Positions 12,571 to 41,877 of a stretch of DNA of 64,000 bases are shown piece after piece (the stretch's first letter is position 1; each line of letters begins with the position of its first letter). Source of the stretch: Xiphydria camelus (Eukaryota > Arthropoda > Insecta > Hymenoptera > Xiphydriidae); assembly GCA_963678675.1 (NCBI GenBank), contig OY783192.1, positions 32,209,250 to 32,273,249 of the forward strand. The letters run 5' to 3'. The notes under the pieces are model-generated. The model had not been told where the DNA came from. It searched no databases and saw only the letters and a list, made by a program, of their open reading frames with translations. The translations under genes were made by a program, and so were the position numbers.

Positions 12571-13487
12571 TATATCGCTGCCTCGGAATTATAAGGTTCT
12601 ATGTTACTGAGAACGTCTACAGAACATAGAACCTTATAATTCTGAGGCAGCGATATGTCGAGTGTTTACGGGTTTATACTACAACGAACTGTAAAAAGTA
12701 CACTGTATCTATTAAAAAATTTAACGTCTCTCCTCGAAGAGCCCTGTCACTGGGATTCACTATAAAAATTACTAATCATTCATCTCCGCTTAGAGCTATT
12801 GATTATTTGAGAAGAGCTTTAATGAAAACAATGGTTTGTGCTCTTGCACACTGTTAAGTCCTGACGTTCGAAAAGAGATAATCGATCATTCTCTCGAATC
12901 TCTAACAATAAGACATTTATCCACGTACGAACCTAAATACTCGTATATATATCGCTTCTTCAGCATTAAGCCATGTCAATTTTCTATTTAGCTTACACCT
13001 ATACATTAATATTTTATACCCTAATTATACGTCTAAGTCTACGTCTACCACTTACTTTTCCATCCTGCCGACAGGGTACAAGACCGAAAGTCGGTGGTTG
13101 TACGTCAATCCTGATCGCTTCGTCTGGAATAAGCGTCCAGTACTTGCCCTCTAGAATCAGACCTCTCAGGTAATGCTCGCATATACATATATCGCTTCTT
13201 CAGCATTAAGCCATGTCAATTTACTATTTAGCTTACACCTATACATTAATATTTTATACCCTAATTAGACGTCTAAATCTACCACTTACTTTTCCAACCT
13301 GCCGACAGGGTACAAGACCGAAAGTCGGTGGTTCTACGTCAATCCTGATCGCTTCCTCTGGAATAAGCGTCCAGTACTTGTCCTCTAGAATCAGACCTCT
13401 CAGGTAATGCTCGCATATACATATATCGCTTCTTCAGCATTAAGCCACGTCAATTTACTATTTAGCTTACATCTATACATTAATATT

Positions 13488-13847
13488 CTATACCCGAATT
13501 CTACCACTACGTCTACCTCTACGTCTACTACTTGCTTCTTTGACCTGCCGACAGGGTGAAAGACCGAAAGTCGGCGATCCTGCGTCAATCCTGAACGTTT
13601 TGCCTGGAGTAAGCGTCCAGTGCTTGTCCTCTAGAATCAGACGTCTCAGGTGATGCCTGACACGAGATCTCAGCTTGCAATCTCGCTTGCAAATGGTCAA
13701 CCATCTGCTGGATACCAGTGCTGCGTTCAAGAGTGATCTGTCGTCCAATTGTCCAAAAATTAACTCAGTCACCTCGATCGGAAATTTTTTCGTAAAGTCG
13801 TTTGAGGGAGGATCGATTGCTCGTAGAAACGACCTGAAGGACTCCAT
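13488..13847 (-). CDS. F-box motif protein, F1 left arm
   Basis: Complete 119-codon ORF reading away from the centre of the palindrome. Residues 21-60 fit the F-box pattern: Phe22-Pro23, Ile30-Phe31, Leu34, LL at 39-40, ALV at 43-45 and Trp49. F-boxes normally bind Skp1 to recruit an SCF ubiquitin ligase; here that role is only inferred from the motif. The rest is basic and ends in an Arg/Ser-rich tail (SSRRRGRRSGRIRV). No substrate-binding repeats (LRR, WD40, ankyrin) are present and 119 residues is short for an F-box protein, so it may be a minimal Skp1-binding module. The start ATG is conserved in all six arm copies and is preceded by a TATATAAG box. Confidence 0.7.
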   Translation of the reverse strand: MESFRSFLRAIDPPSNDFTKKFPIEVTELIFGQLDDRSLLNAALVSSRWLTICKRDCKLRSRVRHHLRRLILEDKHWTLTPGKTFRIDAGSPTFGLSPCRQVKEASSRRRGRRSGRIRV

Positions 13848-14084
13848 GTCGATGCTTCAGCGATGAGTCGTCGATTGAATGCAACCCGTCGAGAACGGTT
13901 CTTATATAGACCTACTCTCAGCGATCGCGCGACGGACTGCGCATGCGCAGCAAGGCGTTCTCCGGATGCGTAACGTGACGCCCGCGCATGCGCAGTACGT
14001 CGCGCGACCGCTGAGGGTAGGCCTATATAAGAGCCGTTCTTGATGGGTTGCATTCAATCGACGACTCATCGCTGAAGCATCGAC
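13848..14084. promoter_or_regulatory. Bidirectional promoter-like centre of F1
   Basis: Between the two divergent ATGs are a minus-strand TATA box (CTTATATA at 13901-13908) and a plus-strand one (TATATAAG at 14024-14031). Two GCGCATGCGCA sites lie at 13939-13949 and 13984-13994; the first sits within a full TGCGCATGCGCA, the palindromic NRF1 (Drosophila ewg) consensus. That spacing suits divergent transcription; this is inferred. Confidence 0.55.
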
Positions 14085-14444
14085 ATGGAGTCCTTCAGGT
14101 CGTTTCTACGAGCAATCGATCCTCCCTCAAACGACTTTACGAAAAAATTTCCGATCGAGGTGACTGAGTTGATTTTTGGACAATTGGACGACAGATCACT
14201 CTTGAACGCAGCACTGGTATCCAGCAGATGGTTGACCATTTGCAAACGAGATTGCAAGCTGAGATCTCGTGTCAGGCATTACCTGAGACGTCTGTTTCTA
14301 GAGGACAAGCACTGGACGCTTACTCCAGGCAAAGCGTTCAGGATTGACGCAGGATCGCCGACTTTCGGTCTTGCACCCTGTCGGCAGGTCAAAGAAGCAA
14401 GTAGTAGACGTAGAGGTAGACGTAGTGGTAGAATTCGGGTATAG
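14085..14444 (+). CDS. F-box motif protein, F1 right arm
   Basis: Complete 119-codon ORF that mirrors the left-arm ORF with only a few residue changes (HHLRRLI versus HYLRRLF, GKT versus GKA, GLS versus GLA). F-box motif at residues 21-60 with Trp49 kept. A TATATAAG box lies at 14024-14031, 53 nt before the ATG. Past the stop a tandem unit repeats the C-terminal ~60 codons in degenerate form (LRGLILEDKYW then PPTFGL). Both arms being intact argues against old decay, although recent gene conversion could also keep them alike. Confidence 0.7.
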   Translation: MESFRSFLRAIDPPSNDFTKKFPIEVTELIFGQLDDRSLLNAALVSSRWLTICKRDCKLRSRVRHYLRRLFLEDKHWTLTPGKAFRIDAGSPTFGLAPCRQVKEASSRRRGRRSGRIRV

Positions 14445-15127
14445 AATATTAATGTATAGATGTAAGCTAAATAGTAAATTGACGTGGCTTAATGCTGAAG
14501 AAGCGATATATGTATATGCGAGCATTACCTGAGAGGTCTGATTCTAGAGGACAAGTACTGGACGCTTATTCCATACGAAGCGATCAGGATTGACGTAGAG
14601 CCACCGACTTTCGGTCTTGTGCCCTGTCGGCAGGTTGGAACAGTAAGTGGTAGACGTAGACTTAGACGTATAATTAGGGTATAAAATATTAATGTATAGG
14701 TGTAAGCTAAATAGAAAATTGACATGGCTTAATGCTGAAGAAGCGATATATATACGAGTATTTAGGTTCGTACGTGGATAAATGTCTTATTGTTAGAGAT
14801 TCGAGAGAATGATCGATTATCTCTTTTCGAACGTCAGGACTTAACAGTGTGCAAGAGCACAAACCATTGTTTTCATTAAAGCTCTTCTCAAATAATCAAT
14901 AGCTCTAAACGGAGATGAAAGATTAGTAATTTTTATAGTGAATCCCAGTGACAGGGCTCTTCGAGGAGAGACGTTAAATTTTTTAATAGATACAGTGTAC
15001 TTTTTACAGTTCGTTGTAGTATAAACCCGTAAACACTCGACATATCGCTGCCTCAGAATTATAAGGTTCTATGTTCTGTAGACGTTCTATGTAACATAGA
15101 ACCTTATAATTCCGAGGCAGCGATATA

Positions 15128-17034
15128 CAGGGTGTCCGTAAAGTATGGAAACGGTTGAATATCCCGAAAAGTACGCTTCAGAACGGGAAACGAAAAAATA
15201 TGTATCCGCTATTTTTTTTTAAACTATCAAATGATACCAAGATTGATCCCACACCCCAACCCCTGTGGGTGGGGCAGGGGGAAGCTTCAAAATCTTAAAT
15301 AGGAACCCCGACTTTTGATTGCATATTCGCATTCTACATTAAAAACTGCATAACTTTTATTTGAAACATTTTTTTCGATTCATGGCAGATGGCGCTATAA
15401 TCGACGAAATTCAATTTTTCCGGTTTTTGCAATTGAGAGTCGATTTATTCGATTCTGCAATACAATTGCGATAGAAATTTACATTTTTTATTCTCATACT
15501 TGATATTTTTGTTAAAAATTTAATTTAGTTTTGCAAATTTGAAGTGCAGATGCGTTCTGTACTTGGAATTCCCCGTGACACACTAAGTTCCGTTAGAGGA
15601 AATAAGCTAATTACTCAAGGATAATCCCTTTCGGAATACATCGAGGTTCGAGGGTCCGGAAAGGTCCGGCAATTAGCATATTTTTGTTAAAAATTTAATT
15701 TAGTTTTGCAAATTTGAAGTGCAGATGCGTTCTGTACCTGGAATTCCCCGTGACGCACTGAGTTCCGTTAGAGGAAATAAGCTAATTACTCAAGGATAAT
15801 CCCTTTCGGAATACATCGAGGTTCGAGGGTCCGGAAAGGTCCGGCAATTAGCTTATTTTTGTTAAAAATTTAATTTAGTTTTGCAAATTTGAATTTACAG
15901 TAAAACTTTCATCGTTAGACGTTTAGAAATCTGGCAAATACACTACTTTTAGCGTAATCCAGAAGCAACGACGTGGACGTAATAGTTTTCTGTTCCCTTC
16001 GGGGTGCTTGATTCAGGTGAGTCCCCTTGCCTCTCACCATCGGGGTGCTTGATTCAGGTATGGATATCAGTTCCTAGCAATCAGTATTAGCGCGACGAAG
16101 GGTTAATTGCGATAATAAGACGGATGGTACATTCCGGGAATCGTAGCTATTCTTTCACTAGTAGTCCCTTTTAATGATATCAGTTAACCTGAGTACACGT
16201 AACCAGGTACCTCTAATTTCCGGGCCTTTCCGGACCCTCGAACCTCGATGTATTCCGAAAGAGATTATCCTTGAGTAATTAGCTTATTTCCTCTAACGGA
16301 ACTTAGTGCGTCACGGGGAATTCCAGGTACAGAATTTAATTTAGTTTTGCAAATTTGAAGTGCAGATGCGTTCTGTACCTGGAATTCCCCGTGACGCACT
16401 AAGTTCCGTTAGAGGAAATAAGCTAATTACTCAAGGATAATCCCTTTCGGAATACATCGAGGTTCGAGGATCCGGAAGGCCCGGCAATTAGCGGTACCTG
16501 TTGACGTGTACTCAGGTTAACGGATATCATTAAAACGGGCTACTAGTGAAAGAATAGCTACGATTCCCGGAATATATCGTCCGCTGGGGGAATTCCAGGT
16601 ACAGAACGCATCTGCACTTCAAATTTGCAAAACTAAATTAAATTTTTAACAAAAATATCAAGTATGAGAATAAAAAATGTAAATTTCTATCGCAATTGTA
16701 TTGCAGAATCGAATAAATCGATTCTCAATTGCAAAAACCGAAAAAATTAAATTTCGTCGATTATAGCGCCATCTGCCACAAATCGAAAAAAAATGTTTCA
16801 AATAAAAGTTATGTAGTTTTTAATGTAGAATGCGAATATGCAATCAAAAGTGGGGGTTCCTATTTAAGATTTTAAAGCTTCCCCCTGCCCCACCCACAGG
16901 GGTTGGGGTGTGGGATCAATGTTGGTATCATTTGATAGTTTTTAAAAAAATATCGGATACGTATTTTGTCGTTTCCCGATCTGAAGCGTACTTTTCGAGA
17001 TATTCAACCGTTTCCATACTTTTCGGACACCCTG
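15128..17034. mobile_element. X palindrome, copy B, with internal tandem units
   Basis: Begins CAGGGTGTCCGTAAAG and ends TTTTCGGACACCCTG, with TA on both sides. It is longer than copy A because of two ~175-bp direct units (from 15518 and 15691) and an extra segment 15894-16200 that holds a duplicated TCGGGGTGCTTGATTCAGGT. No coding sequence. Confidence 0.7.
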
Positions 17035-17036
17035 TA

Positions 17037-17250
17037 CATAAATCCTACGGAATACTAGCTTTCCGCTCGCGACTTCGTCCGCATGGATCTCGAAATAATT
17101 GTATCCCCTATTTTACCCCCTTAAGGGATAAATTTCTAAACATCGTGAAACAAGCCTTTCTTAATTTCTAACCGAAAGGGCAAACACCAATTTTCATGAA
17201 TCTAGTGGATGCTTAGGTCACAAAGAAAACTGACTGTCCAAATTTCATGT
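17037..17250. repeat. Possible LINE-derived fragment
   Basis: The block CCGCTCGCGACTTCGTCCGC followed by a degenerate 'gggataaatt' segment resembles a widely dispersed insect retrotransposon tail. No ORF; the assignment is from memory of the motif and is weak. Confidence 0.3.
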
Positions 17251-17255
17251 AATTA

Positions 17256-17341
17256 TCAGGTCAGTCCAAAAGTTCGTGCGTATTACACTATTTAAAAATA
17301 CGCACAAATGCGCACGAACTTTTCGACTGATCTGATAACTT
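17256..17341. repeat. Mini-hairpin with mariner-like ends
   Basis: ATCAGGTCAGTCCAAAAG and CTTTTCGACTGATCTGAT are inverted; stems extend through GTTCGTGCG. It is about 86 bp with TA at the edges and could be a deleted mariner MITE. Confidence 0.5.
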
Positions 17342-17575
17342 CAGCGGTTTCGACTCGGCGTTGATGAATCTGTCAATTAGTCAAAACACGTTCTTTTACA
17401 TGTATACATATATAGACAGTATATATATAAACAGTATATATAACAGTTTATATATATAAACAGTATTTAACCGAATTCACAACTATCCCATTACTGCATT
17501 TCTTACCTGGAGTTTTTTCCCCCATATTTTTTAAGATTGATCGCTACATTTTCAAACATCCTATTTCTCATAGTA

Positions 17576-18101
17576 GCTATTCCATCGATGAACACTGGCC
17601 ATTAAATGTTATCAACAAACTGCACATTACGCGATTCGATTTTACAAGAGAAATTATATTTCTGAAATTGGAGCGAAGCAAAGCTATACGCTTGTAAATA
17701 TGCGACATAAAAGCGAATACCCTCATTTCGTTTAAAACGCGTTTCCCTTGACGTTCTCTCCGCTTCATCCATCTCCTTCAATTTCTCTCGCCTCGCGAGA
17801 GATAACGACAGGCGGAGCCGTGTCGAGCGTCCTGTCAAAGAGTGGGATGGAATCTAACTTTCTTACTGCTTATCCTCACGACCGCGACGTCTCGCGCGAC
17901 GAGAACACGAAGAATGCTCGCGTACGTTCAAAGACAAATTGATAAATGAGTATAGGAAAAAGGGGACGCAATGGCATCTAGTGAAACTTTGAGGAAATAT
18001 TCGCTGGCTTTTTCAGATTTTCCAACCTGAAATAACTAATTTTCTCCGAGCCAGCTCGTACAGCTGGAAATTTTGTATTGGAGACGGCCCACCCATTTTT
18101 A
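17576..18101. other. No recognised feature
   Basis: Unique sequence without a motif I can name. Confidence 0.4.
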
Positions 18102-18269
18102 TATGTTAAAATCAACTGATTCTTCGTGTTAATTTAACATTCCTTGTATTAATTTTAACACGAGAAATCTTGGATTAATCAACTGATTTCTCGTCTTAAT
18201 TTATCATTGCTTTTGTTAAAGACACAAAAAATGTTGGATTAACACGAAAGATTGGTTGACTTTAACATA
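18102..18269. repeat. Palindrome of about 168 bp
   Basis: ATGTTAAAATCAACTGATTC at left is mirrored by GATTGGTTGACTTTAACAT at right, with TTAACACGA blocks repeated between. Confidence 0.55.
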
Positions 18270-18949
18270 GAAAATAAGCGAATCATTTCCAACAAAAAAT
18301 GTCCAACTGCATATCACCCTGTAGGACAATTTTACGCGATAATGAAAAATTGCTTCATCGCAATTCCCTCTTTCCCGAGCGCGTAGCACCACTAGAGCAA
18401 TATTTCCGCGCTAGAGTCGCCGTCCGCGAAGTAAGACAACCGCGATTAAGTCTTCCGCCGCGCGCAGGAAGTAACGTAAGCCCCGGAAAGCGTTGTATAT
18501 ACCAGCCGCTCCTGGATTTAACGATAAATAACGCGTTTTTCTCTCCGCCTCTTGAATATGCATATTTAATCTGCAGTAAAACCTGAACCGCAGCGCGGAC
18601 TAATGTTTTGCATTAGTCGGCGGGCTACCTCTAGATTTGTCCGCACCACGGAGAAAGCCGAAACCGGGGGGGCGTTTCTTTCGCAATTCTCCGCGGGAAA
18701 AATGCGCGCGACGATGTATTATACTCGCGCGGTTTTCTCGTGAGGATCGATTTGCGGTGAGAGAATGCTTATTCGAAATGGATTGTTGTTTTCTCTTTTC
18801 CTACGCTACTCTAGACGCTTTTTTAAACAACACTCGCATAGATATATAGCATTTTCCAACTTCCTCCGTTATTTTTCCTCCGATGCGTATCCGGCGAAAA
18901 GAACTGGAATAATAATTGTTGAATGTAGACGAAGAGTTTTCGTTCGTGA
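18270..18949. other. No recognised feature
   Basis: CpG-rich unique stretch; short chance ORFs only. Confidence 0.4.
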
Positions 18950-19209
18950 CACTGATAAAAATAACTTAATCGATTGAATCAAAATCTTGGAGATGATAAG
19001 CCAACCGTTTGGTGAAATATGGATAATCCATTGGCTGAGTTAGATTGACCAGTTTTTGGTCAGACTAACTAAACGTTTGAATGGAAAAACTCAATATTTG
19101 GTTGAAATAACTTGAAATCTGGTTCAACTGACCAATATTTTGGTTAGGATAACTAAATGTGTTCAACCAGATGCGTTTTGTCACTCTAACCTAATTATTT
19201 TTCTCAGTG
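18950..19209 (+). mobile_element. G-family MITE, full copy
   Basis: Ends CACTGATAAAAATAA and TTATTTTTCTCAGTG. The interior carries CAACCGTTTGGTGAAATATG and CCAGATGCGTTTTGTCA. It is followed two bases later by an inverted copy. Confidence 0.7.
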
Positions 19210-19211
19210 CA

Positions 19212-19475
19212 CACTCAGAAAAATAATTGAACTTTGTTAAAATTACAAAACGCATCCGGTTAAACGAGTCTAGTTATTCTAACCAAAATACTAGTAAGTT
19301 TAATCAAATAACTCGTTATTCTAACTACATGTTTAGTAATTATAATTACATGTCCAGTTATTCTAACTAGAAGATGATTAGTTTAAACGAACGAATGGAG
19401 GATTCATATTTCATCAAACGACTCGATTATAGTTTCCAGGAATTTGATTAAATTTACCAGGTTATTTTTCTCGTG
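19212..19475 (-). mobile_element. G-family MITE, full copy, inverted
   Basis: Starts CACTCAGAAAAATAATTG and ends TTATTTTTCTCGTG. Head-to-tail order is reversed relative to the preceding copy, so the pair could form a ~260-bp stem. Confidence 0.7.
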
Positions 19476-19994
19476 TACGTTCGCGTACCTACATATATTG
19501 CACACCGCGAAGCGGCATCTTCTGGAAGACATCACCCGATAAAACGTCGAGGAAATCTTCCGCGGCAAGATTGCTGTTTACACTGTTACGCGAAGCGATG
19601 AAAAGTATATCTATAAGTGCGCATCTATCCGCGTTACCGCAAGCCGTCACGTCAACTGGAAAAGCGGCTTCGGGCGTTTCGAACGTCGTCGAATATGCAG
19701 TAGGTACGGGCTTTTCAGAAACAGCAGTGGAAACAGGAAAACCCGTTCATTCTATCTAGACATCAGATATTGATCGACAATCGAATATTGCTTCCGTATA
19801 AACCTATGAGTATTTGTTTCTCCTCGTCGTCTTTCCACGAGTAATGGTATTTGAAGTATTCACGATCGGAGTTAATCAATCGAGCGGCAACTTCGAATAA
19901 CTCGGAAAGTAATCCCGCGCTATCTTGATTTAAATTCCAGTCCTGGGGAATTTGGGAATATGATTCGAATAGTACAATAGAGAGTTATTAAAAA
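19476..19994. other. No recognised feature
   Basis: Unique sequence; one 62-codon open frame without a recognisable motif. Confidence 0.4.
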
Positions 19995-20257
19995 CTGAGA
20001 AGACTAACTTGGTTAAAATGAGAAAACGTATCTGGTTATACGAATTTAGTTATTCTAACTAAAATATTAATAAATTGAACCAAAAACATTTAGTTATTCT
20101 TACCACATTTTTAGTAATTCTAACTACGCGTCTAGTTACTGTAATCAGAAAATGATCAGTCATACCAAATAAATCGAGAGGATCCATATTTCACCAAACG
20201 GTTTGGTTATGATCTCCAAGATTTTGATTAAATTGACAAAATTACTCTTCTCTCTGC
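19995..20257 (-). mobile_element. G-family MITE, diverged copy
   Basis: Same order of blocks as 19212-19475 (AACGTATCTGGTTA near the left, CACCAAACGGTTTGGTTATG near the right). Ends are eroded. Confidence 0.65.
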
Positions 20258-20899
20258 GAAGAAAGCATCATATGTGGTTTCTGGCCAACGCGACGTAACG
20301 CTATCATATTCATCGATTGCTTCAGCTTCTAATGATCATTCAAGAAGATTAAATTCACCCTTCCGTGCCATATAATTTCCGACGTCAGAGTATTCACGTT
20401 ATAATTATTAGTAGCCAGATATTCCACTCCGTAGTTATCAATGCCCAAACCCTTCTCTTCGAAACTTTCGGAGTGCGAAACTTGGAAGGTCGAAAATCAA
20501 AGGAGCTGGACATCGAAACTCGAGGACGACCAGCCTTTGACATAAGTTTCCCACTGTGGAAATTTGCCCCTCTTGAAGTCTTCCCCTAATCATCCCACAC
20601 AGTTTATCGACCAAAGCCGTCGTCGCATTAATCAACTCGAATCTAGTAGACTGTTAAAAATGACTCGAATATCAAGAATCGAAGAATCTGAATTTTCAAC
20701 AATACTCGAAAACTTATACCGTGCCTCAATATTCATTTCTTTGACTAAAATTCAAAACAAAAGGACATTATACTCGTAGACATGACAATTTAGCTTATAT
20801 GACATTTTAAATTCAAACGTGTGGTTGATAATTGCTTCAATTATTTTCATTTTGAATTTTGAAATAAAACTTTCAACGGATAGATTGTTATTGCCCCTA
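20258..20899. other. No recognised feature
   Basis: AT-leaning unique sequence, no motif found. Confidence 0.4.
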
Positions 20900-21138
20900 C
20901 ACTGAGAAAACAGTTTACTTATAGTTAATATATAACATAATACGTATATTTGATTATGACGAAAAAAATATTTCTTTGGGCCAAGCAAATATTCGTTAGC
21001 TATTGCTCTATTTCTGTTTGAATGAAAGAGACATTCTAATGATTAACATATATTTACTTGGCACAATGAGATATTTCTTTCGCCATAAGAACAATCAAGT
21101 ATATATTTATTAACTACAAATAAACTCTTCTCTCAGTG
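20900..21138. mobile_element. MITE family Q, copy 1
   Basis: CACTGAGAAAACAGTTTACT to TCTCTCAGTG. The interior (TTTCTTTGGGCCAAGCAAAT, GATATTTCTTTCGCCATAA) recurs at 31230-31464 and folds on itself. Confidence 0.7.
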
Positions 21139-22070
21139 CAGAAGGATGTGACAAGCAGGAAAAATATTTTTCCCCGCGAGTGTATCTCAAGAAAATGCCT
21201 CGAATATGATTAATTTCCCACAAACTGCAAAGCCTTGCATCCGTTGTCGGGTAAAGCTCCTGCAATTAAACTGACTGACAGAAATTGTCTCGCATGAACG
21301 TCGGTGCGAGAAACTCAAGCTCCGACGATGATAAGAGATCACTGCTCCACTCCGAGAGAGTGCGGGGTTTAGAGAAACGAAGCGCGAGGTGTGCTCGGGG
21401 AGAAATTTGCGATTTAATTACGAGATATGAAAACTTTCCACGAATCGCTAAGTGGTGTCGGTGAGGATCAGCGGGGCAGATTTAGGGGATGACGAGTTTC
21501 ATCGAAATAATCAATCTGTAACTTCCGCACGGTGAGAGAAATTAGATCGACCCGGGGAACTTCCTCGGTACACTTTTCTTTACGCTTTGCATCCAATCTG
21601 TTAAAGTACCGTCACCCCGAACATAAAATTAAGGCCGTTGAAGTGAAGGAAGAACTTCTCAATTAGCAGAGGTGCGAAAGTATATCGAGAAGATATGACT
21701 TTCTTTCGTACGATCTGATAAGAATTTAATTTTTATTCGATAAAAATACATTTACTAAACGACAACGAGGATAATTCAACTGAGATGAGGGAAATGAAGC
21801 CGATAAATCGAAGCATATAGGAAAGCTTCCAAAAACTGCAACAAGCTTTACCGAAGGAATAAACTTGCAATTAAAATGATCCGGAGTAGATCGACTGTAC
21901 ATCTCTGCAGTTCGTTAATTCTCTATTTATGTATATAAAAAAAAAGCCTACGGAAGATCACGGAATAATTGTTTCTATGCTTTTGTATTATAAAACTTGA
22001 AGAGAAAGACCGACTGCAATTCCAAATTCGATATTTAATGACAATGACTATCAGACACGCCGAGGAATGT
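21139..22070. other. No recognised feature
   Basis: Unique sequence with no repeat or gene signal that I can identify. Confidence 0.4.
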
Positions 22071-23108: not shown

Positions 23109-23969
23109 GCTCTAATGCTTCAAAAAGGTATACTTTATTCGTCTCTCGAACAATAATTTACGCCGATCTAAACAACAAAAATGATTTCGTGGAAAATCCT
23201 TTCGATGCAATTCTCACATCTTTTAATGCACTCATAAACACGCGTTAATCGCGACCGAATTTTCCGCCCGTGGCCGTTCGAACGCGACGAGTTTCAATTT
23301 CGTTGAAAACGCGAAAGCGGTGGAACCGAGCGGAGAAAAAATTTCACTGGAGAAGCAACAGCAAACATTTCCCCGATAATTCGTCACTCGTAGTTGCATA
23401 TACATACGTGTATTGATCATCCTCGTCGCTGACGCGACCGCCAATGTACTCTGTTGCAGGATATTTATCACCGGGAGCAAGTAATGTGATTTGAGGCTGT
23501 TCGATAATCGCGCGAGCGGCGTGCAAAAAGCACACAGACTAGTCTCATCGATATTAGATGGAAAATTAATAAAGGAACCTACTAACACAGGAATTATGAG
23601 CGATATAAAATAATGATCACGATCTCTAGACTGAATTTCTTCGATCGCTGAACTCTAAATCAACGTAAACGATTGTCCGGGAATTCTCGCGTGTATATTC
23701 ACTGCAGCCGTAAGCTCGATATCGCGAAATCAACATGACATAGCCTCCGAGCTAAGACCTTTCGAGCCAATAATTCACTGACAATTGGTTTACCCACGCG
23801 CAAGGTAATGCTAATACCAGGCGTGTATTGATTGTATCAGCGGTAATTATTATTGACAGGGAGTACGCAACTGGACCACGCAGATTATATTACTAGAGAA
23901 TCTTAGCACGAGATTCCTCTATTAATGTGTGTGTGACTATTACGTCGGAGGATTTAAGAAGTTTTTATA
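23109..23969. other. No recognised feature
   Basis: Unique CpG-rich sequence; the 118-codon open frame at 23232-23588 has no recognisable motif. Confidence 0.4.
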
Positions 23970-24793
23970 CAGGTTGTCCGAAAAGTATGGAAACGGTTGA
24001 ATATCTCGAAAAGTACGCTTCAGATCGGGAAACGAAAAAATACGTATCAGATGATACCAAGATCGATCCCACACCCCAACCCCTGTAGGTGGTGCAGGGG
24101 GAAGCTTCAAAATCTTAAATAGGAACCCCCACTTTTGATTGCATATTCGCATTTTACATTAAAAACTACATAACTTTTATTTGAAACATTTTTTTCGATT
24201 CGTGGCAGATGGCGCTATAATCGACGAAATTCAATTTTTCGGCTTTTGCAATTGAGAGTCGATTTATTCGATTCTGCAATACAATTGCGATAGAAATTTA
24301 CATTTTTCATTCTCATACTTGATATTTTTGTTCAAAATTTAAATTAGTTTTGCAAATTTGAATTTACAGTAAAACTTTCATCGTTAGACGTTTAGAAATC
24401 TGGCAAATACACTACTTTTAGCGTAACCCAGAAGCAACGACGTGGACGTAATAGTTTTCTGTTCCCTTCGGGGTGCTTGATTCAGGTGAGTCCCCTTGCC
24501 TCTCACCATCGGGGTGCTTGATTCAGGTATGGATATCAGTTCCTAGCAATCAGTATTAGCGCGACGAAGGGTTAATTGCGATAATAAGGCGGACGGTATA
24601 TTCCGGGAATCTCTCGTATCTATTCTTTCACTAGTAGTCCGTTTTAATGATATCCGTTAACCTGAGTACACGTAACCAGGTACCGCTAATTGCCGGGCCT
24701 TTCCAGACCCTCGAACCTCGATGTATTCCGAAAGGGATTATCCTTGAGTAATTAGCTTATTTCCTCTAACGGAACTTAGTGCGTCACGGGGAA
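23970..24793. mobile_element. X element, copy C, one-ended
   Basis: The left terminus CAGGTTGTCCGAAAAG is present, then the same series of blocks as copy B including the duplicated GGGGTGCTTGATTCAGG. It stops at GTCACGGGGAATT where repeat R1 begins, so the right arm is lost. Confidence 0.65.
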
Positions 24794-25217
24794 TTTGTTT
24801 CACTACTTTCTCCATGACTAAGGCGAAAATCAAAGTGAATGTATCTTTCGTATAAGTGCACGTATTGCGATATCGGAAAATTCTAAATTTACTGCTAGCA
24901 GATAATTCGGTATACGACGGTGGTCATGTTATAATAACAATATTTTCATTAATTTGCATCGTAGCCTAAGCCGATTTTATTTCAAGAAATGTAGTACGGT
25001 ATGTAGATTTTGAGAAAAAAAATGATATCACTTCGCGAAAATGGATAATTACCTACAGAAAAACCAGTGGAATAAATTTTCTGAATATAGTGATAATTTT
25101 CCGTAAACACGATTGGTTGAAATATGAGGAATTCTACAGGGACTCTTGCGATCGGAGGAAAGCTGGCTCCAAAGGGCTTGAAATCAGAACTCTCTCTGTT
25201 GACTCCCAAGCCAGCTT
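24793..25217 (-). repeat. Dispersed repeat R1, copy 2
   Basis: Inverse match to 4955-5432. The X copy C breakpoint coincides with its edge. Confidence 0.6.
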
Positions 25218-31071: not shown

Positions 31072-31200
31072 AAAGTTCTGGGAAAACTCATGAATTTTTA
31101 GTTATCCCAGTAACAGGACTTCTCGAGGTGAAACATTGAAGTTTTTAGTAGACCACAATGTCCTTTTTACAGTTTGTAACAGTATAAACATCAGTTTACA
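31072..31200 (+). repeat. Diverged relic of the F element outer arm
   Basis: Aligns with the outer arm of F (for example 14920-15050). Both share ATCCCAGT.ACAGG, TCGAGG, TTTTTACAGTT and AGTATAAAC. In frame it reads PSNRTSRGETLKFLVD where F1 reads PSDRALRGETLNFLID. Confidence 0.55.
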
Positions 31201-31229
31201 CGGCAAAATTTACCAATCCCCCATTAATA

Positions 31230-31464
31230 CACTGAGAAAACAGTTTTTCATAGTTAACATGTGTACGCACACTTGATTATGGCGAAAGAAATATTTCTTT
31301 GGGCCAAGCAAATATTCATAAGCTATTACTTTATTTTCGTTGGAATGAAAGAGATATTCTAATAATAATTAACACATATGTACTTGGCTCAACGAGATAT
31401 TTCTTTCGCCATAATCAAACACACATTTATCGACTACGAAATAATAAACTCCTCTCTCAGAGTG
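31230..31464. mobile_element. MITE family Q, copy 2
   Basis: Same ends and interior as 20900-21138, with TA on both sides. It ends six bases before F element 2. Confidence 0.7.
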
Positions 31465-32371
31465 TATGTATATCGCTGCCTGAGAATTATAAGGTTCTAT
31501 GTTACATAGAACTTCTATAGAACATAGAACATTATAATTCTGAGGCAGCGATATGTCGAGTGTTTATGGGTTTATACTACAACGAACTGTAAAAAGTACA
31601 CTGTATCTATTAAAAAATTTAACGTCTCTCCTCGAAGAGCCCTGTCACTGGGATTCACTATAAAAATTACTAATCTTTAATCTCCGTTTAGAGCTATTGA
31701 TTATTTGAGAAGAGCTTTAATGAAAACAATGATTTGTGCTTGCACACTGTTAAGTCTTGACGTTCGAAAAGAGATAATCGATCATTCTCTCGAATCTCTA
31801 ACAATAAGACATTTATCCACGTACGAACCTAAATACTCGTATATATATCGCTTCTTCAGCATTAAGCCATGTCAATTTGCTATTTAGCTTACACCTATAC
31901 ATTAATATTTTATACCCTAATTCTACGTCTACCACTTACTTTTCCAACCTGCCGACAGGGTACAAGACCGAAAGTCGGTGGTTCTACGTCAATCCTGATC
32001 GCTTCGTCTGGAATAAGCGTCCAGTACTTGCCCTCTAGAATCAGACCTCTCAGTTAATGCTCGCATATACATATATCGCTTCTTCAGCATTAAGCCATGT
32101 CAATTTACTATTTAGCTTACACCTATACATTAATATTTTATACCCTAATTCTACGTCTAAGTCTACCACTTACTTTTCCAACCTGCCGACAGGGTACAAG
32201 ACCGAAAGTCGGTGGTTCTACGTCAATCCTGATCGCTTCGTCTGGAATAAGCGTCCAGTACTTGTCCTCTAGAATCAGACCTCTCAAGTAATGCTCGCAT
32301 ATACATATATCGCTTCTTCAGCATTAAGCCACGTCAATTTACTATTTAGCTTACATCTATACATTAATATT

Positions 32372-32731
32372 CTATACCCGAATTCTACCACTACGTCTAC
32401 CACTACGTCTACTACTTGCTTCTTTGACCTGCCGACAGGGTGCAAGACCGAAAGTCGGCGATCCTGCGTCAATCCTGAACGTTTTGCCTGGAGTAAGTGT
32501 CCAGTGCTTGTCCTCTAGAATCAGACGTCTCAGGTAATGCCTGACACGAGATCTCAGCTTGCAATCTCGTTTGCAAATGGTCAACCATCTGCTGGATACC
32601 AGTGCTGCGTTCAAGAGTGATCTGTCGTCCAATTGTCCAAAAATCAACTCAGTCACCTCGATCGGAAGTTCTCTCGTAAAGTCGTTTGAGGGAGGATCGA
32701 TTGCTCGTAGAAAGGACCTGAAGGACTCCAT
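32372..32731 (-). CDS. F-box motif protein, F2 left arm
   Basis: Intact 119-codon ORF with the F-box at residues 21-60. It differs from F1 at the F-box entry (RELPIEV instead of KKFPIEV), which restores the usual Leu-Pro of F-boxes. Same basic RS-rich tail (RRSGRRSGRIRV). A TATA box lies on the minus strand at 32785-32792. Confidence 0.7.
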   Translation of the reverse strand: MESFRSFLRAIDPPSNDFTRELPIEVTELIFGQLDDRSLLNAALVSSRWLTICKRDCKLRSRVRHYLRRLILEDKHWTLTPGKTFRIDAGSPTFGLAPCRQVKEASSRRSGRRSGRIRV

Positions 32732-32968
32732 GTTGATGCTTCAGCGATGAGACGTCGATTGAATACAACCCATCGAGAACGGCTCTTATATAGGCCTACA
32801 CTCAGCGGTCGCGCGACGTACTGCGCATGCGCGGGCGTCACGTTGCGCATCCGGAGAACGCCATGCTGCGCACGCGCAGTCCGTCACGCGATCGCTGAGA
32901 GTAGGTCTATATAAGAACCGTTCTCGACGGGTTGCATTCAATGGACGACTCATCGCTGAAGCATCGAC
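32732..32968. promoter_or_regulatory. Bidirectional promoter-like centre of F2
   Basis: TATA boxes at 32785-32792 (-) and 32908-32915 (+). NRF1-type sites are TGCGCATGCGC at 32822-32832 and TGCGCACGCGCA at 32867-32878. The sequence between them is the reverse complement of that in F1 and F3. Confidence 0.55.
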
Positions 32969-33328
32969 ATGGAGTCCTTCAGGTCCTTTCTACGAGCAAT
33001 CGATCCTCCCTCAAACGACTTTACGAAAAAACTTCCGATCGAGGTGACTGAGTTGATTTTTGGACAATTGGACGACAGATCACTTTTGAACGCAGCACTG
33101 GTATCCCGAAGATGGTTGGCCATTTGCAAACGTGATTGCAAGCTGAGATCTCGTATCAGGTATCACCTGAGACGTCTGATTCTAGAGGACAAGCACTGGA
33201 CGCTTACTCCAGGCAAAGCGTTCAGAATTGACGCAGGATCGCCGACTTTCGGTCTTGCACCCTGTCGGCAGGTCAAAGAAGCAAGTAGTAGACGTAGAGG
33301 TAGACGTAGTGGTAGAATTCGGGTATAG
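32969..33328 (+). CDS. F-box motif protein, F2 right arm
   Basis: Intact 119-codon ORF reading KKLPIEV at the F-box entry and SRRWLAICK at Trp49. These variants are shared with the F3 right arm but not with its own left arm. TATATAAG at 32908-32915 is 53 nt from the ATG, as in F1 and F3. Confidence 0.7.
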   Translation: MESFRSFLRAIDPPSNDFTKKLPIEVTELIFGQLDDRSLLNAALVSRRWLAICKRDCKLRSRIRYHLRRLILEDKHWTLTPGKAFRIDAGSPTFGLAPCRQVKEASSRRRGRRSGRIRV

Positions 33329-33640
33329 AATATTAATGTATAGATGTAAGCTAAATAGTAAATTGACGTGGCTTAATGCTGAAGAAGCGATATATGTATA
33401 TGCGAGCATTACCTGAGAGGTCTGATTCTAGAGGACAAGTATTGGACGCTTATTCCAGACGAAGCGATCAGGATTGACGTAGATCCACCGACTTTCGGTC
33501 TTGCACCCTGTCGGCAGGTCGGAAAAGTACATGGTAGACGTATACTTAGACGTAGAATTAGGGTATAGAATATTAATGTATAGGTGTAAGCTAAATAGCA
33601 AATTGACATGGCTTAATGCTGAAGAAGCGATATACCATAT

Positions 33641-33890
33641 ACCGTATGTCTGACGGCAAGCGCAACAGGAGCTGTAACCTAAAATTTGACTTCGGCAGTG
33701 TTTGGAGGGTGCTCAAGTCACTCACAAATAAGAAATAATTGACAGCTATCGAGAAATCAGACATTTTGACACTTTTCGCCCTTACGCTGTGCGAGCAGCG
33801 TTTATGAGTGACTCGAGCATCCTCCAAACACTGCCGAAGTCAAATTTTCAGGTCACAGCTCCTGTTGCGCTTGCTGTCAGACATACGGTA
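33641..33890. mobile_element. Hairpin MITE inserted in F2
   Basis: TACCGTATGTCTGACGGCAA, then GCGCAACAGGAGCTG, is mirrored at 33840-33890. Absent from F1 and F3 at the same position, so it arrived later. Confidence 0.65.
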
Positions 33891-35559
33891 TACGAGTATT
33901 TAGGTTCATACGTGGGTAAACGTCTTAGAGATTCGAGAGAGAATGATCGATTATCTCTTTTCGAACGTCAGGACTTAACAGTGTGCAAGGATAAACCATT
34001 GTTTTCATTAAAGCTCTTTTCAAATAATCAATAGCTCTAAACGGAGATGAAAGATTAGTCATTTTTATAGTGAATCCCAGTAACAGGGCTCTTCGAGGCG
34101 AGACGTTAAATTTTTTTAAAGATACAGTGTACTTTTTAAAGTTCGTTGCAGTATAAACCCGTAAACACTCGACATATCGCTGCCTCAGAATTATAAGGTT
34201 CTATGTTCTATAGACGTTCTATATAACATAGAACCTTATAATTCCGAGGCAGCGATATACAGGGTGTCCGAAAAGTATGGAAACGGTTGAATATCTCGAA
34301 AAGTACGCCTCAGATCGGGAAACGAAAAAATACGTATCCTATATTTTTTTAAAAACTATGAAATGATACCAAGATTGATCCTACACCCCAACCCCTGTAG
34401 GTGGGGCAGGGGGAAGTTTCAAAATCTTAAATAGGAACCCTCACTTTTGATTGCATATTCGCATTCTACATTAAAAACTACATAACTTTTATTTGAAACA
34501 TTTTTTTCGATTCGTGGCAGATGGCGCTATAATCGACGAAATTCAATTTTTTCGGTTTTTGCAATGGAGAGTCGATTTATTCGATTCTGCAATACAATTG
34601 CGATAGAAATTTACATTTTTTATTCTAATACTTGATATTTTTGTTAAAAATTTAATTTAGTTTTGCAAATTTGAAGTGCAGATGCGTTCTGTACCTGGAA
34701 TTCCCCCAGCGGACGATATATTCCGGGAATCGTAGCTATTCTTTCACTAGTAGCCCGTTTTAATGTTATCCGTTAACCTGAGTATACGTCAACAGGTACC
34801 GCTAATTGCCGGGCCTTCCGGATCCTCGAACCTCGATGTATTCCGAAAGGGATTATCCTTGAGTAATTAGCTTATTTCCTCTAACGGAACTTAGTGCGTC
34901 ACGGGGAATTTCAGGTACAGAACGCATCTGCACTTCAAAGGGTCTCGCCGTATTTCCATATGAAAAATGCCCCGGCACTAATTAACTTTGTTAAACCTTT
35001 TATTTATTGCTTTTTATCCAAAATACCTCCACAACAAATTTCAGACCGCTAACTTCACGTACAAGGGAAATAGGGGGTTAACAACAATTAACGTTACTAT
35101 TTTTCTTCTCTGGAACTACAAAAGATATCAAAGTCGTTCAAAAACTAAATTATAGGTCTTCGTGAGTAGTATATTATATATTTTTTCGACGGCATAAAAG
35201 CACTGTTTAAAGGTGTAAATTTTAAAAAATAGGTTTTGCAATGGAAAATTTATAACAATTGCTGGAGATACACCAACCAAAAAAATCATATAGAGTCATC
35301 AATTAGTGAGCTGTTATATAAAAAAATTGTCAAATAGTTTAATTTGGTGGAAGACAGTAAAAAAATTGAATAACCTTTAACGCGTTCACGCCGGCGCAGC
35401 GCGGTACTCAGTGCCAGCGTGAACGTGTTAATTCATATTATATTATGTATATTTATTTATTAATTAATTATGTATGCACAATATCTATATTGTTTTATAA
35501 TATACATAATATACAATAATGTGTACAAAAAACAAATAATTCGTATGATTTACATAATC

Positions 35560-35715
35560 TTGGTAGATGAGTTGGTTACATCAAATATAGTGGTAAATAT
35601 TTCGGCAGGTCTAACGATTTTAGATTTTTTACATTTAGCGGGTACGTGACTAATAATAAATTAGAGCAGCTATATGCAAACTGCATCCTACTGTCCTACT
35701 ATTAACAGGCCCTGT
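35560..35715 (-). pseudogene. Second SWIM fragment, degenerate, left arm
   Basis: On the minus strand the frame reads NSRTVGCSLHIAALIYY and then a stop. It is the mirror of the copy in the right arm and lies in tandem with the better copy at 35724-35969. Confidence 0.5.
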
Positions 35716-35723
35716 TCATGACT

Positions 35724-35969
35724 TTAGTCATCATCACTATTCTCCTCAACGGTGGTAGATAATGTGGTTACGTCAAATATATTTGTCAATATTTCGGCTG
35801 GTCTAACGATTTTAGACTTGTAGCGGCTGTATGACAAATAATAAATTATGGCAGCTACATGCGAACAGCACCCTACAGTCCTACTGCCATTAGCACAGTC
35901 ACAAGTGTATCTTAGGATACCCTTGTAGCTATTCACGTTTGGCCGATATTCAATGTAGCACTGGTACAT
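35724..35969 (-). pseudogene. SWIM-type zinc-finger protein fragment
   Basis: An 81-codon open fragment reads MYQCYIEYRPNVNSYKGI, then CDCANGSRTVGCCSHVAAII, then YYLSYSRYKSKIVRPAEIL and an acidic end. The CxC...CxH arrangement (Cys-Asp-Cys, then Gly-Cys-Cys-Ser-His) is a SWIM finger. Fingers with this wording occur near the C-terminus of transposon-encoded proteins in insects. The catalytic part is missing, so the copy is a non-functional remnant. Confidence 0.6.
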
Positions 35970-36169
35970 TTTACTATTTATATGGCGTGAACGAACTTTA
36001 ATTTTTTGATAATATTTTCAGAGTCCATTAAATATTCGACATTTAAAGTGTTCTCGTCATGCATTATTTCCGCGAGATAACATATTGCTTGTGACATTTA
36101 ATATGTGCCTGTAAATAGTATCTTGAGATCGTCTTCAGTAAATTCCCGAAATAATTGGTAATAAATTAA

Positions 36170-36660
36170 TTGGATTACGGTGGGAGTAGCGTGGATTGAT
36201 GCATTGCGCCCTGATTGGCTAGAAGAAAGTTTAGAACAAGGGCTGACATTGGGTATTTTCCGAATTCCAGTTCTAGTTAGCAATGAGTCAGGCTACGCGG
36301 AATGATAAAGAGACTTGATAAGACAGGTATTATTACATTTATCCGATCGGTCATCTATTGAATTCGTCATTTCTCCCCTTTACAAGCTGACTTAGCATTC
36401 GAAATATAGCGGTACCTATCTATTACAGTGTGTACTGCGAAAAACATTCGTTAATTAGACTTTTCGGGAAAGGCGCGGGGCTACAAGCTCATTAGTATCC
36501 TAGATTCACGGAAACATACCGCCTCACCGTTGTGACTGATGGCGAGATTGACTCTAGATTAGAGAGGTACATAGATCGCGATATCGAGTGGTAAGAACCG
36601 ACATGTAGAAGTCCGTTTATTGTGCGACGGAACAAGGTTGTGTTTGGCTCATATTTTCAT
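36170..36660 (+). repeat. Y repeat, copy 3, in the spacer of the SWIM foldback
   Basis: Matches the reverse complement of 46060-46680 (GATAGCGTGG..GATGC, then CCGATTGGCTAG-like, then the coding block GYKLISILDSRKHTA). With one frameshift corrected only conceptually, the frame continues VVTDGEIDSR. Not an intact gene. Confidence 0.5.
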
Positions 36661-36729
36661 TACCTATGGAATATTTTTATCGTAAATGTGTGTGAAGAAA
36701 AAAATCCCAGCAATTTAGCCAAACGTGAA

Positions 36730-36905
36730 CAGTTACAAGGATGTACTAAGGTATACTACTTTTGATTGTGCTAATGGCAGTAGGACGGCAGGATGCAGTT
36801 CGCATATAGCTGCTATAATTTATTATTAGTCACGTATCCGCTAAATCTAAAAAATCTAAAATCGTTAGACCTGCCGAAATATATACCACTATATTTGATG
36901 TAACC
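36730..36905 (+). pseudogene. SWIM fragment, degenerate, right arm
   Basis: Reads DCANGSRTAGCSSHIAAIIY, then Y and a stop. One Cys of the finger is lost. Inverse partner of 35560-35715. Confidence 0.5.
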
Positions 36906-39105
36906 AACTCATCTACCAAGATTATGTAAATCATACGAATTATTTGTTTTTTGTACACATTATTGTATATTATGTATATTATAAAACAATATAGATATTG
37001 TGCATACATAATTAATTAATAAATAAATATACATAATATAATATGAATTAACACGTTCACGCTGGTACTGAGTACCGCGCTGCGCCGGCGTAAACGCGTT
37101 AAAGGTTATTCAATTTTTTTACTGTCTTCCACCAAATTAAACTATTTGATAATTTTTTTATATAACAGCTCACTAATTGATGATTCTATATGATTTTTTT
37201 GGTTGGTGTATCTCCAGCAATTGTTATAAATTTTCCATTGCAAAACCTATTTTTTTTAATTTACACCTTTAAACAGTGCTTTTATGCCGTCGAAAAAATA
37301 TATAATATACTACCCACAAAGACCTACAATTTAGTTTTTGAACGACTTTGATATCTTTTATAGTTCCAGAGAAAAAAAATAGTAACGTTAATTGTTGTTA
37401 ACCCCCTATTTCCCTTGTACGTGAAGTTAGCGGTCTGAAATTTGTTGTGGAGGTATTTTGGATAAAAAGCAATAAATAAAAGGTTTAACAAAATTAATTA
37501 GTGCCGGGGCATTTTTCATATGGAAATACGGCGAGACCCTTTGCAAAACTAAATTAAATTTTTAACAAACATATGCTAATTGCCGGACCTTTCCGGACCC
37601 TCGAACCTCGATGTATTCCGAAAGGGATTATCCTTGAGTAATTAGCTTATTTCCTCTAACGGAACTTAGTGCGTCACGGGGAATTCCAGGTACAGAACGC
37701 ATCTGCACTTCAAATTTGCAAAACTAAATTAAATTTTGAACAAAAATATGCTAATTGCCGGACCTTTCCGGACCCTCGAACCTCGATGTATTCCGAAAGG
37801 GATTATCCTTGAGTAATTAGCTTATTTCCTCTAACGGAACTTAGTGCGTCACGGGGAATTCCAAGTACAGAACGCATCTGCACTTCAAATTTGCAAAACT
37901 AAATTAAATTTTTAACAAGAATATCAAGTATGAGAATAAAAAATGTAAATTTCTATCGCAATCGTATTGCAGAATCGAATAAATCGACTCTCAATTGCAA
38001 ACCGAAAAAATTGAATTTCGTCGATTATAGCGCCATCTGCCATGAATCGAAAAAAATGTTTCAAATAAAAGTTATGTAGTTTTTAATGTAGAATGCGAAT
38101 ATGCAATCAAAAGTGAGGGTTCCTATTTAAGATTTTGAAACTTCCCCCTGCCCCACCTACAGGGGTTGGGGTGTAGGATCAATCTTGGTATCATTTGATA
38201 GTTTTTTTTAAAAAATATCGGATACGTATTTTTTCGTTTCCCGATCTGAGGCGTACTTTTCGAGATATTCAACCGTTTCCATACTTTTCGGACACCCTGT
38301 ATATCGCTGCCTCGGAATTATAAGGTTCTATGTTACATAGAACGTCTATAGAACATAGAACCTTATAATTCTGAGGCAGCGATATGTCGAGTGTTTACGG
38401 GTTTATACTACAACGAACTGTAAAAAGTACACTGTATCTATTAAAAAATTTAACGTCTCGCCTCGAAGAGCCCTGTTACTGGGATTCACTATAAAAATTA
38501 CTAATCTTTCATCTCCGTTTAGAGCTATTGATTATTTGAAAAGAGCTTTAATGAAAACAATGGTTTGTCCTCTTGCACACTGTTAAGTCCTGACGTTCGA
38601 AAAGAGATAATCGATCATTCCCTCTCGAATCTCTAAGACGTTTACCCACGTATGAACCTAAATACACTCGTATATATATCGCTTCTTCAGCATTAAGCCA
38701 TGTCAATTTGCTATTTAGCTTACACCTATACATTAATATTCTATACCCTAATTCTACGTCTAAATATACGTCTAAAATGTACTTTTCCGACCTGCCGACA
38801 GGGTGCAAGACCGAAAGTCGGTGGTTCTACGTCAATCCTGATCGCTTCGTCTGGAATAAGCGTCCAATACTTGTCCTCTAGAATCAGACCTCTCTGGTAA
38901 TACTCGCATATATATCGCTTCTTCAGCATTAAGCCATGTCAATTTACTATTTAGCTTACATCTATACATTAATATTCTATACCCGAATTCTACCACTACG
39001 TCTACCTCTACGTCTACTACTTGCTTCTTTGACCTGCCGACAGGGTGCAAGACCGAAAGTCGGCGATCCTGCGTCAATCCTGAACGTTTTGCCTGGAGTA
39101 AGTGT

Positions 39106-39336
39106 CTAGTGCTTGTCCTCTAGAATCAGACGTCTCAGGTGATGCCTGACACGAGATCTCAGCTTGCAATCACGTTTGTAAATGGCCAACCATCTGCTTG
39201 ATACCAGTGCTGCGTTCAAGAGTGATCTGTCGTCCAATTGTCCAAAAATCAACTCAGTCACCTCGATCGGAAGTTCTCTCGTAAAGTCGTTTGAGGGAGG
39301 ATCGATTGCTCGTAGAAAGGACCTGAAGGACTCCAT
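39106..39336 (-). pseudogene. F-box motif protein, F3 left arm, truncated
   Basis: The ORF stops after 76 codons at EDKH because the Trp codon that follows in the other copies is TAG here. The F-box itself (RELPIEV to SSRWLAIYK) is complete, but the basic tail is lost. Confidence 0.65.
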
Positions 39337-39573
39337 GTCGATGCTTCAGCGATGAGTCGTCGATTGAATGCAACCCGTCGAGAACGGTTCTTATATAGAC
39401 CTACTCTCAGCGATCGCGCGACGGAATGCGCATGCGCAGCAAGGAGTTCTCCGGATGCGCAACATGACGCCCGCGCATGCGCAATACGTCGCGCGATCGC
39501 TGAGAGTAGGTCTATATAAGAACCGTTCTCGACGGGTTGCATTCAATCGACGACTCATCGCTGAAGCATCGAC
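39337..39573. promoter_or_regulatory. Bidirectional promoter-like centre of F3
   Basis: TATA boxes at 39390-39397 (-) and 39513-39520 (+). NRF1-type sites TGCGCATGCGCA at 39427-39438 and GCGCATGCGCA at 39473-39483. Same orientation as F1. Confidence 0.55.
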
Positions 39574-39933
39574 ATGGAGTCCTTCAGGTCCTTTCTACGA
39601 GCAATCGATCCTCCCTCAAACGACATTACGAAAAAACTTCCGATCGAGGTGACTGAGTTGATTTTTGGACAATTGGACGACAGATCACTTTTGAACGCAG
39701 CACTGGTATCCCGAAGATGGTTGGCCATTTGCAAACGTGATTGCAAGCTGAGATCTCGTATCAGGCATCACCTGAGACGTCTGATTCTAGTGGACAAGCA
39801 CTGGTCGCTTACTCCAGGTAAAGCGTTCAGGATTGACGCAGGATCGCCGACTTTCGGTCTTGCACCCTGTCGGCAGGTCAAAGAAGCAAGTAGTAGACGT
39901 AGAGGTAGACGTAGTGGTAGAATTCGGGTATAG
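39574..39933 (+). CDS. F-box motif protein, F3 right arm
   Basis: Intact 119-codon ORF, nearly the same as the F2 right arm (KKLPIEV, SRRWLAICK, RIRHHLRR). Phe18 is replaced by Ile just before the F-box. TATATAAG at 39513-39520, 53 nt upstream of the ATG. A degenerate tandem unit follows at ~39981-40169 (RGLILEDKYWTLIPDEAIRI). Confidence 0.7.
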   Translation: MESFRSFLRAIDPPSNDITKKLPIEVTELIFGQLDDRSLLNAALVSRRWLAICKRDCKLRSRIRHHLRRLILVDKHWSLTPGKAFRIDAGSPTFGLAPCRQVKEASSRRRGRRSGRIRV

Positions 39934-40610
39934 AATATTAATGTATAGATGTAAGCTAAATAGTAAATTGACATGGCTTAATGCTGAAGAAGCGATATAT
40001 ATGCGAGTATTACCAGAGAGGTCTGATTCTAGAGGACAAGTATTGGACGCTTATTCCAGACGAAGCGATCAGGATTGACGTAGAACCACCGACTTTCGGT
40101 CTTGCACCCTGTCGGCAGGTCGGAAAAGTACATGGTAGACGTATATTTAGACGTAGAATTAGGGTATAGAATATTAATGTATAGGTGTAAGCTAAATAGC
40201 AAATCGACATGGCTTAATGCTGAAGAAGCGATATATATACGAGTGTATTTAGGTTCATACGTGGGTAAACGTCTTAGAGATTCGAGAGAGAATGATCGAT
40301 TATCTCTTTTCGAACGTCAGGACTTAACAGTGTGCAAGAGGACAAACCATTGTTTTCATTAAAGCTCTTTTCAAATAATCAATAGCTCTAAACGGAGATG
40401 AAAGATTAGTCATTTTTATAGTGAATCCCAGTAACAGGGCTCTTCGAGGCGAGACGTTAAATTTTTTAATAGATACAGTGTACTTTTTACAGTTCGTTGT
40501 AGTATAAACCCGTAAACACTCGACATATCGCTGCCTCAGAATTATAAGGTTCTATGTTCTATAGACGTTCTATGTAACATAGAACCTTATAATTCCGAGG
40601 CAGCGATATA

Positions 40611-41875: not shown

Positions 41876-41877
41876 TA

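Follow-up and report, generated by a model that had tools for sequence, protein, structure and literature searches.

The stretch studied here (the window) comprises 64,000 nt of Xiphydria camelus DNA, positions 32,209,250-32,273,249 of contig C6 (OY783192.1) in an assembly of 357 Mb and 38 contigs. It contains three palindromic cassettes, E1, E2 and E3, each with two divergent open reading frames (ORFs) for an F-box protein; we refer to this family as F. A first-pass annotation had described the three as copies of a foldback mobile element built on one plan, and its coordinates, the shared plan and the ORFs were borne out, with three palindromes at the very bases it had named (Table 1). The strongest new facts are that elements of a second palindromic family, X, border the cassettes, that the copies found are clustered and that a related F-box gene forms a megasatellite. 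F resembles a family of genes that spreads locally more than it does an ordinary transposon. The identity between the two arms is unequal, being 94-96% in E1, 92-95% in the main blocks of E2 and 98% in E3. Because the arms differ by 2-8% and F copies lie at five separate places, an assembly artefact was set aside.

Table 1. Positions in the window of the F cassettes, the X elements and their parts
Feature	Coordinates	Strand	Remarks
X1, palindromic TA element	11478..12575		adjoins E1 on the left
F cassette E1	12573..15125		palindrome
Three 234-bp tandem units, E1 left arm	12947..13656		
119-aa F-box ORF, E1 left	13488..13847	-	open
119-aa F-box ORF, E1 right	14085..14444	+	open
F terminal hairpin	15043..15125	+	
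X2	15123..17039		adjoins E1 on the right
X0, partial X	23966..24795		
F cassette E2	31471..34257		
119-aa F-box ORF, E2 left	32372..32731	-	open
119-aa F-box ORF, E2 right	32969..33328	+	open
Hairpin insert, E2 right arm	33635..33888		
X3	34255..38304		between E2 and E3; contains Spy-like element
Spy-like palindromic element in X3	34940..37539		2,600 bp; SWIM-domain remnant; between AAA and TTT
F cassette E3	38302..40608		
F-box ORF, E3 left	38977..39336	-	closed
E3 centre	39320..39590		one outward-pointing TATATAAG per arm, TGCGCATGCGCA-type sites, 35-nt asymmetric spacer
119-aa F-box ORF, E3 right	39574..39933	+	open; used as query for the protein search of the genome
X4	40606..41877		adjoins E3 on the right; contains the site corresponding to the Spy-like insertion, unoccupied

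When the arms were aligned, a common order became apparent. From the centre outward it runs through the 35-nt asymmetric spacer, sites of the TGCGCATGCGCA type, TATATAAG, a short leader and the 119-codon ORF, beyond which come the 234-bp units, two or three in number, an outer segment containing ATTAAA (two arms inspected) and the terminal hairpin. The spacer of E2 is oriented opposite to those of E1 and E3. The centre is a divergent region that resembles a promoter, with TGCGCATGCGCA-type sites that are similar to NRF1 sites. Folded singly, the F end at the right of E1 (83 nt) gave a hairpin of -32.9 kcal/mol, which was equalled by 0 of 200 shuffled sequences, and a 24-nt motif of the hairpin arm occurs 12 times in the window, twice at each of the six F ends (chance mean 0.00). 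The ORF runs into the innermost 234-bp unit from about codon 65 onward. The outer units are open in seven of eight cases, and GTAAGT is found at the same position in five of the eight. Exons of a longer protein were considered for these units and found no clear support, as the ratio of nonsynonymous to synonymous differences (pN/pS) was 1.34 between inner and outer units; among the outer units themselves it was 0.55.

E2 is a mosaic of the other two cassettes. Its outer left arm groups with E1 and its outer right arm with E3, and its left ORF shares changes with the right ORF of E1 as well as with the left ORF of E3. This pattern identifies E2 as the product of an exchange of arms. Different hairpin inserts were seen in the right arm of E2 and at the locus of a further cassette, E5 (L011:2731-2795), at about the same spot directly past the 3′ segment that ends in GCGATATA, which makes this spot a possible insertion hot spot.

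As had been annotated, five of the six ORFs in the window are open; the exception, the left ORF of E3, is interrupted by TAG at codon 77 and also carries C53Y. Pro23, Leu34, Leu39, Leu40 and Trp49 were retained in all six, and the F-box identity was supported by Pfam scores that exceed the curated cut-offs. This applied to both PF12937 and PF00646 in every ORF scanned, namely three of the six in the window, three of the four in the cassettes E4 and E5 and one from the array described below, with E-values for PF12937 of 4e-8, 2.5e-10 and 2.3e-10 in the three window ORFs. At E <= 1, the short F protein matched F-box families alone. In the structural comparison, chains of Skp1/F-box entries made up 16 of the 21 Foldseek matches at E <= 10, but all matches were weak and none reached E <= 0.001 with the model used (mean pLDDT 54.7). 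A D3 chain among these matches is presumably an F-box. The other rows (a cytoplasmic-lattice chain that ranked top by Z, PICALM, Nup170 and designed bundles) were discarded as weak helical matches. By sequence, the 119-aa ORF had no match in the PDB at E <= 1, and no homologue at E <= 10 among 17 candidates from a set of 5.8 billion proteins, insect proteins included, in which lengths of 0.55-1.75 times the query were considered and a longer parent gene could escape. Viral contigs contained no F-box relative and no exact F hairpin or X terminus, and neither Rfam families nor tRNA genes were found in the window or in the array stretches searched (L009:1-4200 and L009).

The X elements have 450-bp inverted arms starting with TATACAGGGTGTCCG, mariner-like ends, TA flanks and a variable interior. 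TA-flanked inverted ends, the mark of miniature inverted-repeat transposable elements (MITEs) of the Tc1/mariner type, are present in X1 to X4. All four adjoin F, whereas X0 lies away from any F. In the window, five of the six F ends adjoin an X, and with E4 and E5 added the count becomes nine of ten; seven of these nine are hairpin ends and two are places where the right arm is truncated (E4 and E5). Tandem units of 175 bp occur within X elements at 15503-15893, 37540-37924 and 41153-41494. The exact X terminus had no match in prokaryote genome contigs. A derivation of X from the array was rejected, since no X match was present in the 4.1 kb of array compared, and a single co-inherited tandem unit of F and X is not a simple solution, as the arm distances disagree.

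Searching the genome with DNA (best 40 of 1,801 candidates scored) yielded 167 matches, all of them on C6 among the matches listed. The protein search with the right ORF of E3 (best 150 of 468 candidates scored) yielded 150 matches, likewise all on C6: ten lie in five F cassettes and the rest in an array at 23.27-23.68 Mb. Array matches fill this list, and remoter relatives, or relatives on other contigs, may lie beyond it. The five cassettes are the three of the window together with E4 (31.968 Mb) and E5 (32.278 Mb), so that the ten F ORFs found fall within 312 kb (C6:31.968-32.279 Mb). Nine of the ten are open, including both ORFs of E4 and both of E5. E4 and E5 again sit between X elements, and in each the right arm ends at an X inside the arm, with loss of the terminal hairpin. 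Their junctions are the same but for one base beside the cut point, and the flanks beyond X are unlike save for short repeats; F and X therefore travelled together there. The same junction recurs on a partial F to the left of E5. On the right flank of E5, L011:7244-7314 matches window positions 43193-43263 at 98.6% over 71 bp, and this window copy adjoins a repeat that resembles the X4 flank.

The array consists of a 2,066-bp unit that starts at C6:23,265,313 (L016:5313) and continues unbroken to at least 23.450 Mb, over at least 185 kb. In the 200 kb fetched (23.250-23.450 Mb) there were 90 matches, 89 of them full units, spaced 2,064-2,067 bp apart. The only other spacing, 2,256 bp, is an orientation flip that coincides with a gap of 200 N (C6:23,288,957-23,289,156). 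Units were also present throughout the samples at 23.694-23.704, 24.000-24.008 and 24.034-24.044 Mb. The right end lies beyond the units sampled up to 24.04 Mb, and the array is probably several hundred kb long; by extrapolation it would hold about 375 units if uninterrupted to 24.04 Mb. The units of L009 are 99.6-99.85% identical to one another. An intact 170-aa ORF was found in 96 of the 102 complete units read, with 19 distinct proteins, one of which is encoded by 61 units. Other features of each unit are a direct repeat of 74 bp, present in 1.9 copies, and, upstream of the F-box ORF, a second ORF of 87 aa.

Aligned with F, the array unit corresponds in the TATA region and promoter, the 5′ leader, the ATG, the C-terminal end with the stop and the 3′ segment up to GCGATATA, with about 79% identity over the matched part. 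Its ORF has four additional codons near the start and about 50 before the common C-terminal end, and the unit also has a GCGCAGCAAGGCG-CTCCGGATGCGCAAC stretch, which is the counterpart of the F centre. The F-box gene is thus not special to the palindrome. Further genome copies, for which the first-pass annotation had proposed a search, do exist as E4, E5 and the array relative, but all on one contig among the matches listed. The clustering of the copies found and the recurrent X borders do not support a dispersed mobile element, and no partner transposase of F was seen in the selected ORFs scanned. An F-box-carrying mobile element finds partial support, in the F-box and the open ORFs.

In the six ORFs of the window, pN/pS averaged over 15 pairs was 0.51 overall, 0.37 in codons 1-63 and 0.88 in codons 64-119. 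Distinct changes comprised 11 synonymous, 15 nonsynonymous and one stop, compared to 7.3, 18.8 and 0.95 expected (P 0.083), and the synonymous excess in codons 1-63 had a P of 0.024. All ten F ORFs together gave 15 synonymous and 23 nonsynonymous changes and one stop (P 0.076). In codons 1-63 of these ten, 10 synonymous and 8 nonsynonymous changes were counted where 4.7 synonymous were expected (P 0.008; omega-like ratio 0.30), and in codons 64-119 there were 5 synonymous and 15 nonsynonymous changes plus the stop (omega-like ratio 1.18). In these counts each distinct variant is one event, despite the exchange of sequence between arms, and the split of the ORF amounts to two tests; with this proviso, constraint on the F-box half (codons 1-63) of the ten F ORFs is probable. 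In the array, 97 units of the same length together showed 17 synonymous and 23 nonsynonymous variants and one stop (26% synonymous expected; P 0.023); of the variants shared by at least three units, 7 were synonymous and 5 nonsynonymous (P 0.018). A McDonald-Kreitman-style table showed an amino-acid excess between the families, with P 0.031 when all variants were counted and 0.015 when only those in at least three units were, but array units are not alleles and relaxed constraint in F would give the same picture. Between F and the array, differences were found at 72/339 positions of the ORF (E3 right), 23/118 of the 5′ flank and 7/78 of the 3′ segment, so that the ORF is not conserved above the 5′ flank and is conserved less than the 3′ segment.

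On balance, we favour the reading that F arose from a small F-box gene that evolves fast and was duplicated head to head in inverted orientation, the cassettes then spreading locally with X at their borders. Because the array shares the promoter, the leader, the start and stop of the ORF and the 3′ segment with F, a gene duplicate is most likely, and an independent transposon that gained an F-box is less so. The ancestral unit would have consisted of the promoter, 5′ leader, F-box ORF and 3′ segment ending in GCGATATA that F and the array have in common. A head-to-head duplication of gene and promoter at the promoter may have given two divergent genes per cassette. The palindrome would have gained, or already have had, hairpin ends, and X elements would have settled at its TA ends, one of them within the right arm before the split of E4 from E5. 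With X as the putative carrier, X-bounded units (X-F-X or (F-X)n) could then have multiplied and swapped arms within the 312 kb, either by recombination between X copies or by X-driven composite transposition. A second gene lineage would have formed the array, 8 Mb away, and either could be first. The F protein is probably expressed and is also likely to bind Skp1 via residues 20-60, and its variable C-terminal half may act as a target adaptor.

Several observations weigh against this reading. Between the X arms next to E1 left and E3 right there are fewer differences (7/448) than between the F arms there (23/371), and the histories of X and F are therefore not simply joint. A 6-bp repeat, TACATA, flanks the block from X1 to X2 as an insertion would leave it, which occurred in 0.7% of random draws; it is found outside X1 and X2 only and is ambiguous as a target duplication. 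In three ORFs for which F was compared with the array, the ratio of nonsynonymous to synonymous substitution rates (dN/dS) came to 1.10, 1.21 and 1.12, codons 64-119 look neutral, and in the six window copies the ORF is as variable as the 3′ arm (27/360 versus 52/669), which together make a protein function insecure. The fold match is weak, and the row that ranks first by Z (3.6) does not come from a Skp1 entry. Maintenance of the ORFs by selection, as supposed in the first-pass annotation, is thus probable for codons 1-63 but is supported neither for codons 64-119 nor between F and the array.

If F were instead a genuine foldback transposon of the non-autonomous kind, similar to Tetris or Galileo, which had captured a fragment of an F-box gene and received X later at its TA-rich ends, this would explain the long arms with tandem units of about 234 bp, comparable to the 220-bp units of Tetris, as well as the hairpin ends, the TACATA repeat around the E1 block and the flanks of the E1, E4 and E5 blocks, which match one another over short stretches only (no more than 262 bp among the matches listed). 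Such an origin seems unlikely to us, as the five copies among the matches listed are all confined to 312 kb of a single contig, the ORFs examined include no transposase and the target duplication is ambiguous. We are just as doubtful about a decaying local palindromic duplication, in which the ORFs would be open through the youth of the copies and the protein would have no function. The overall window counts, the neutral codons 64-119 and the F-array dN/dS of about 1.1 are in line with decay. The synonymous excess in codons 1-63 of the ten ORFs is not. Nor is the placement of the 11 distinct gap blocks in the six-arm alignment, which spare the ORF altogether (three at the centre, eight in the 3′ arm), or the match to the array gene, which, at a divergence of about 20%, extends to start, stop and most of the reading frame.

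A bolder reading, to which we give little credence, is that one chromosome harbours a selfish F-box family in two forms, a megasatellite of hundreds of near-identical genes, most of them intact, and X-bounded palindromic cassettes, whose proteins would hijack the SCF ubiquitin ligase for their own transmission, acting as driver, toxin or anti-silencing factor and diverging under conflict. If this were true, constraint within each family and dN/dS of at least 1 between families would go together. Least probable of all is a hairpin-RNA (hpRNA) locus whose transcript across the centre would form a long duplex and yield small interfering RNAs silencing related F-box genes such as the array: 1,141 nt over the E3 centre do fold as a single near-perfect duplex, and hpRNA loci of Drosophila simulans silence related selfish genes (PMC10292708), but the TATA boxes point outwards, so that transcripts from them would miss the centre, and F and the array are only about 79% identical.

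Besides X, the window holds other mobile elements. The Spy-like element fills a site in X3 that is unoccupied in X4 (paralogous site near 41291), which places the insertion within AAATTT, without duplication. One of its ORFs has a SWIM domain, with insect species among the named matches, and three adjacent fragments have no Pfam family. This element is a bystander inside X3 and no part of F. At 46683-47408 lies a deleted mariner-like relic that begins TATACAGGGTCCG, has 27-nt inverted ends (TATACAGGGTCCGG) and contains a stretch of 140 codons free of stops, among whose named relatives are insect proteins designated Tc3 transposase. We take the relic to hold a mariner transposase motif. Its likeness to X is limited to the first bases of the end. 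A long open stretch at 57836-58270, with no Pfam family above the cut-off, is perhaps a glutamine- and proline-rich host exon.

An array of at least 185 kb with an F-box ORF intact in nearly all units read, together with palindromic, transposon-bounded cousins, is unusual both among satellites and among gene families. Should the proteins be produced, they would offer a test of whether a chromosome can amplify an adaptor of ubiquitin ligases to its own advantage. Otherwise, the locus remains a clear example of the way in which local repeat cassettes are assembled from promoters, palindromes and TA elements, and of mariner-like elements recurring at the exact ends of another palindrome.

No F-box-bearing foldback element was found in the titles and abstract openings listed by searches of an open-access library. 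Tetris of Drosophila virilis (PMC4079207) has tandem units of about 220 bp in long inverted arms and can expand as a satellite; its three complete copies have no conserved ORFs and 8-9-bp target duplications. F resembles Tetris in its long inverted arms holding tandem units and differs in the paired F-box ORFs, the hairpin tips, the X borders and the clustering of its copies. X resembles Tc1/mariner-type MITEs in its TATACAGGGTGTCCG inverted ends and TA flanks, and the mariner relic in the window begins similarly with TATACAGGGTCCG; its 450-bp arms and 175-bp internal tandem units set it apart, and no transposase was seen in X. Spy transposons of the PHIS superfamily insert within AAATTT without target duplication, as described in PMC4482050. 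The element in X3 does the same but is a SWIM-bearing remnant in which no transposase core was seen; its ends begin with GGG, which the same source gives for NuwaI. In Aphidius ervi, the F-box/LRR family has expanded to 232 genes (PMC7257214). The genome studied here likewise shows a large F-box expansion in an insect, but unlike those F-box/LRR genes it takes the form of a near-identical 2,066-bp array and palindromic cassettes that encode a short protein.

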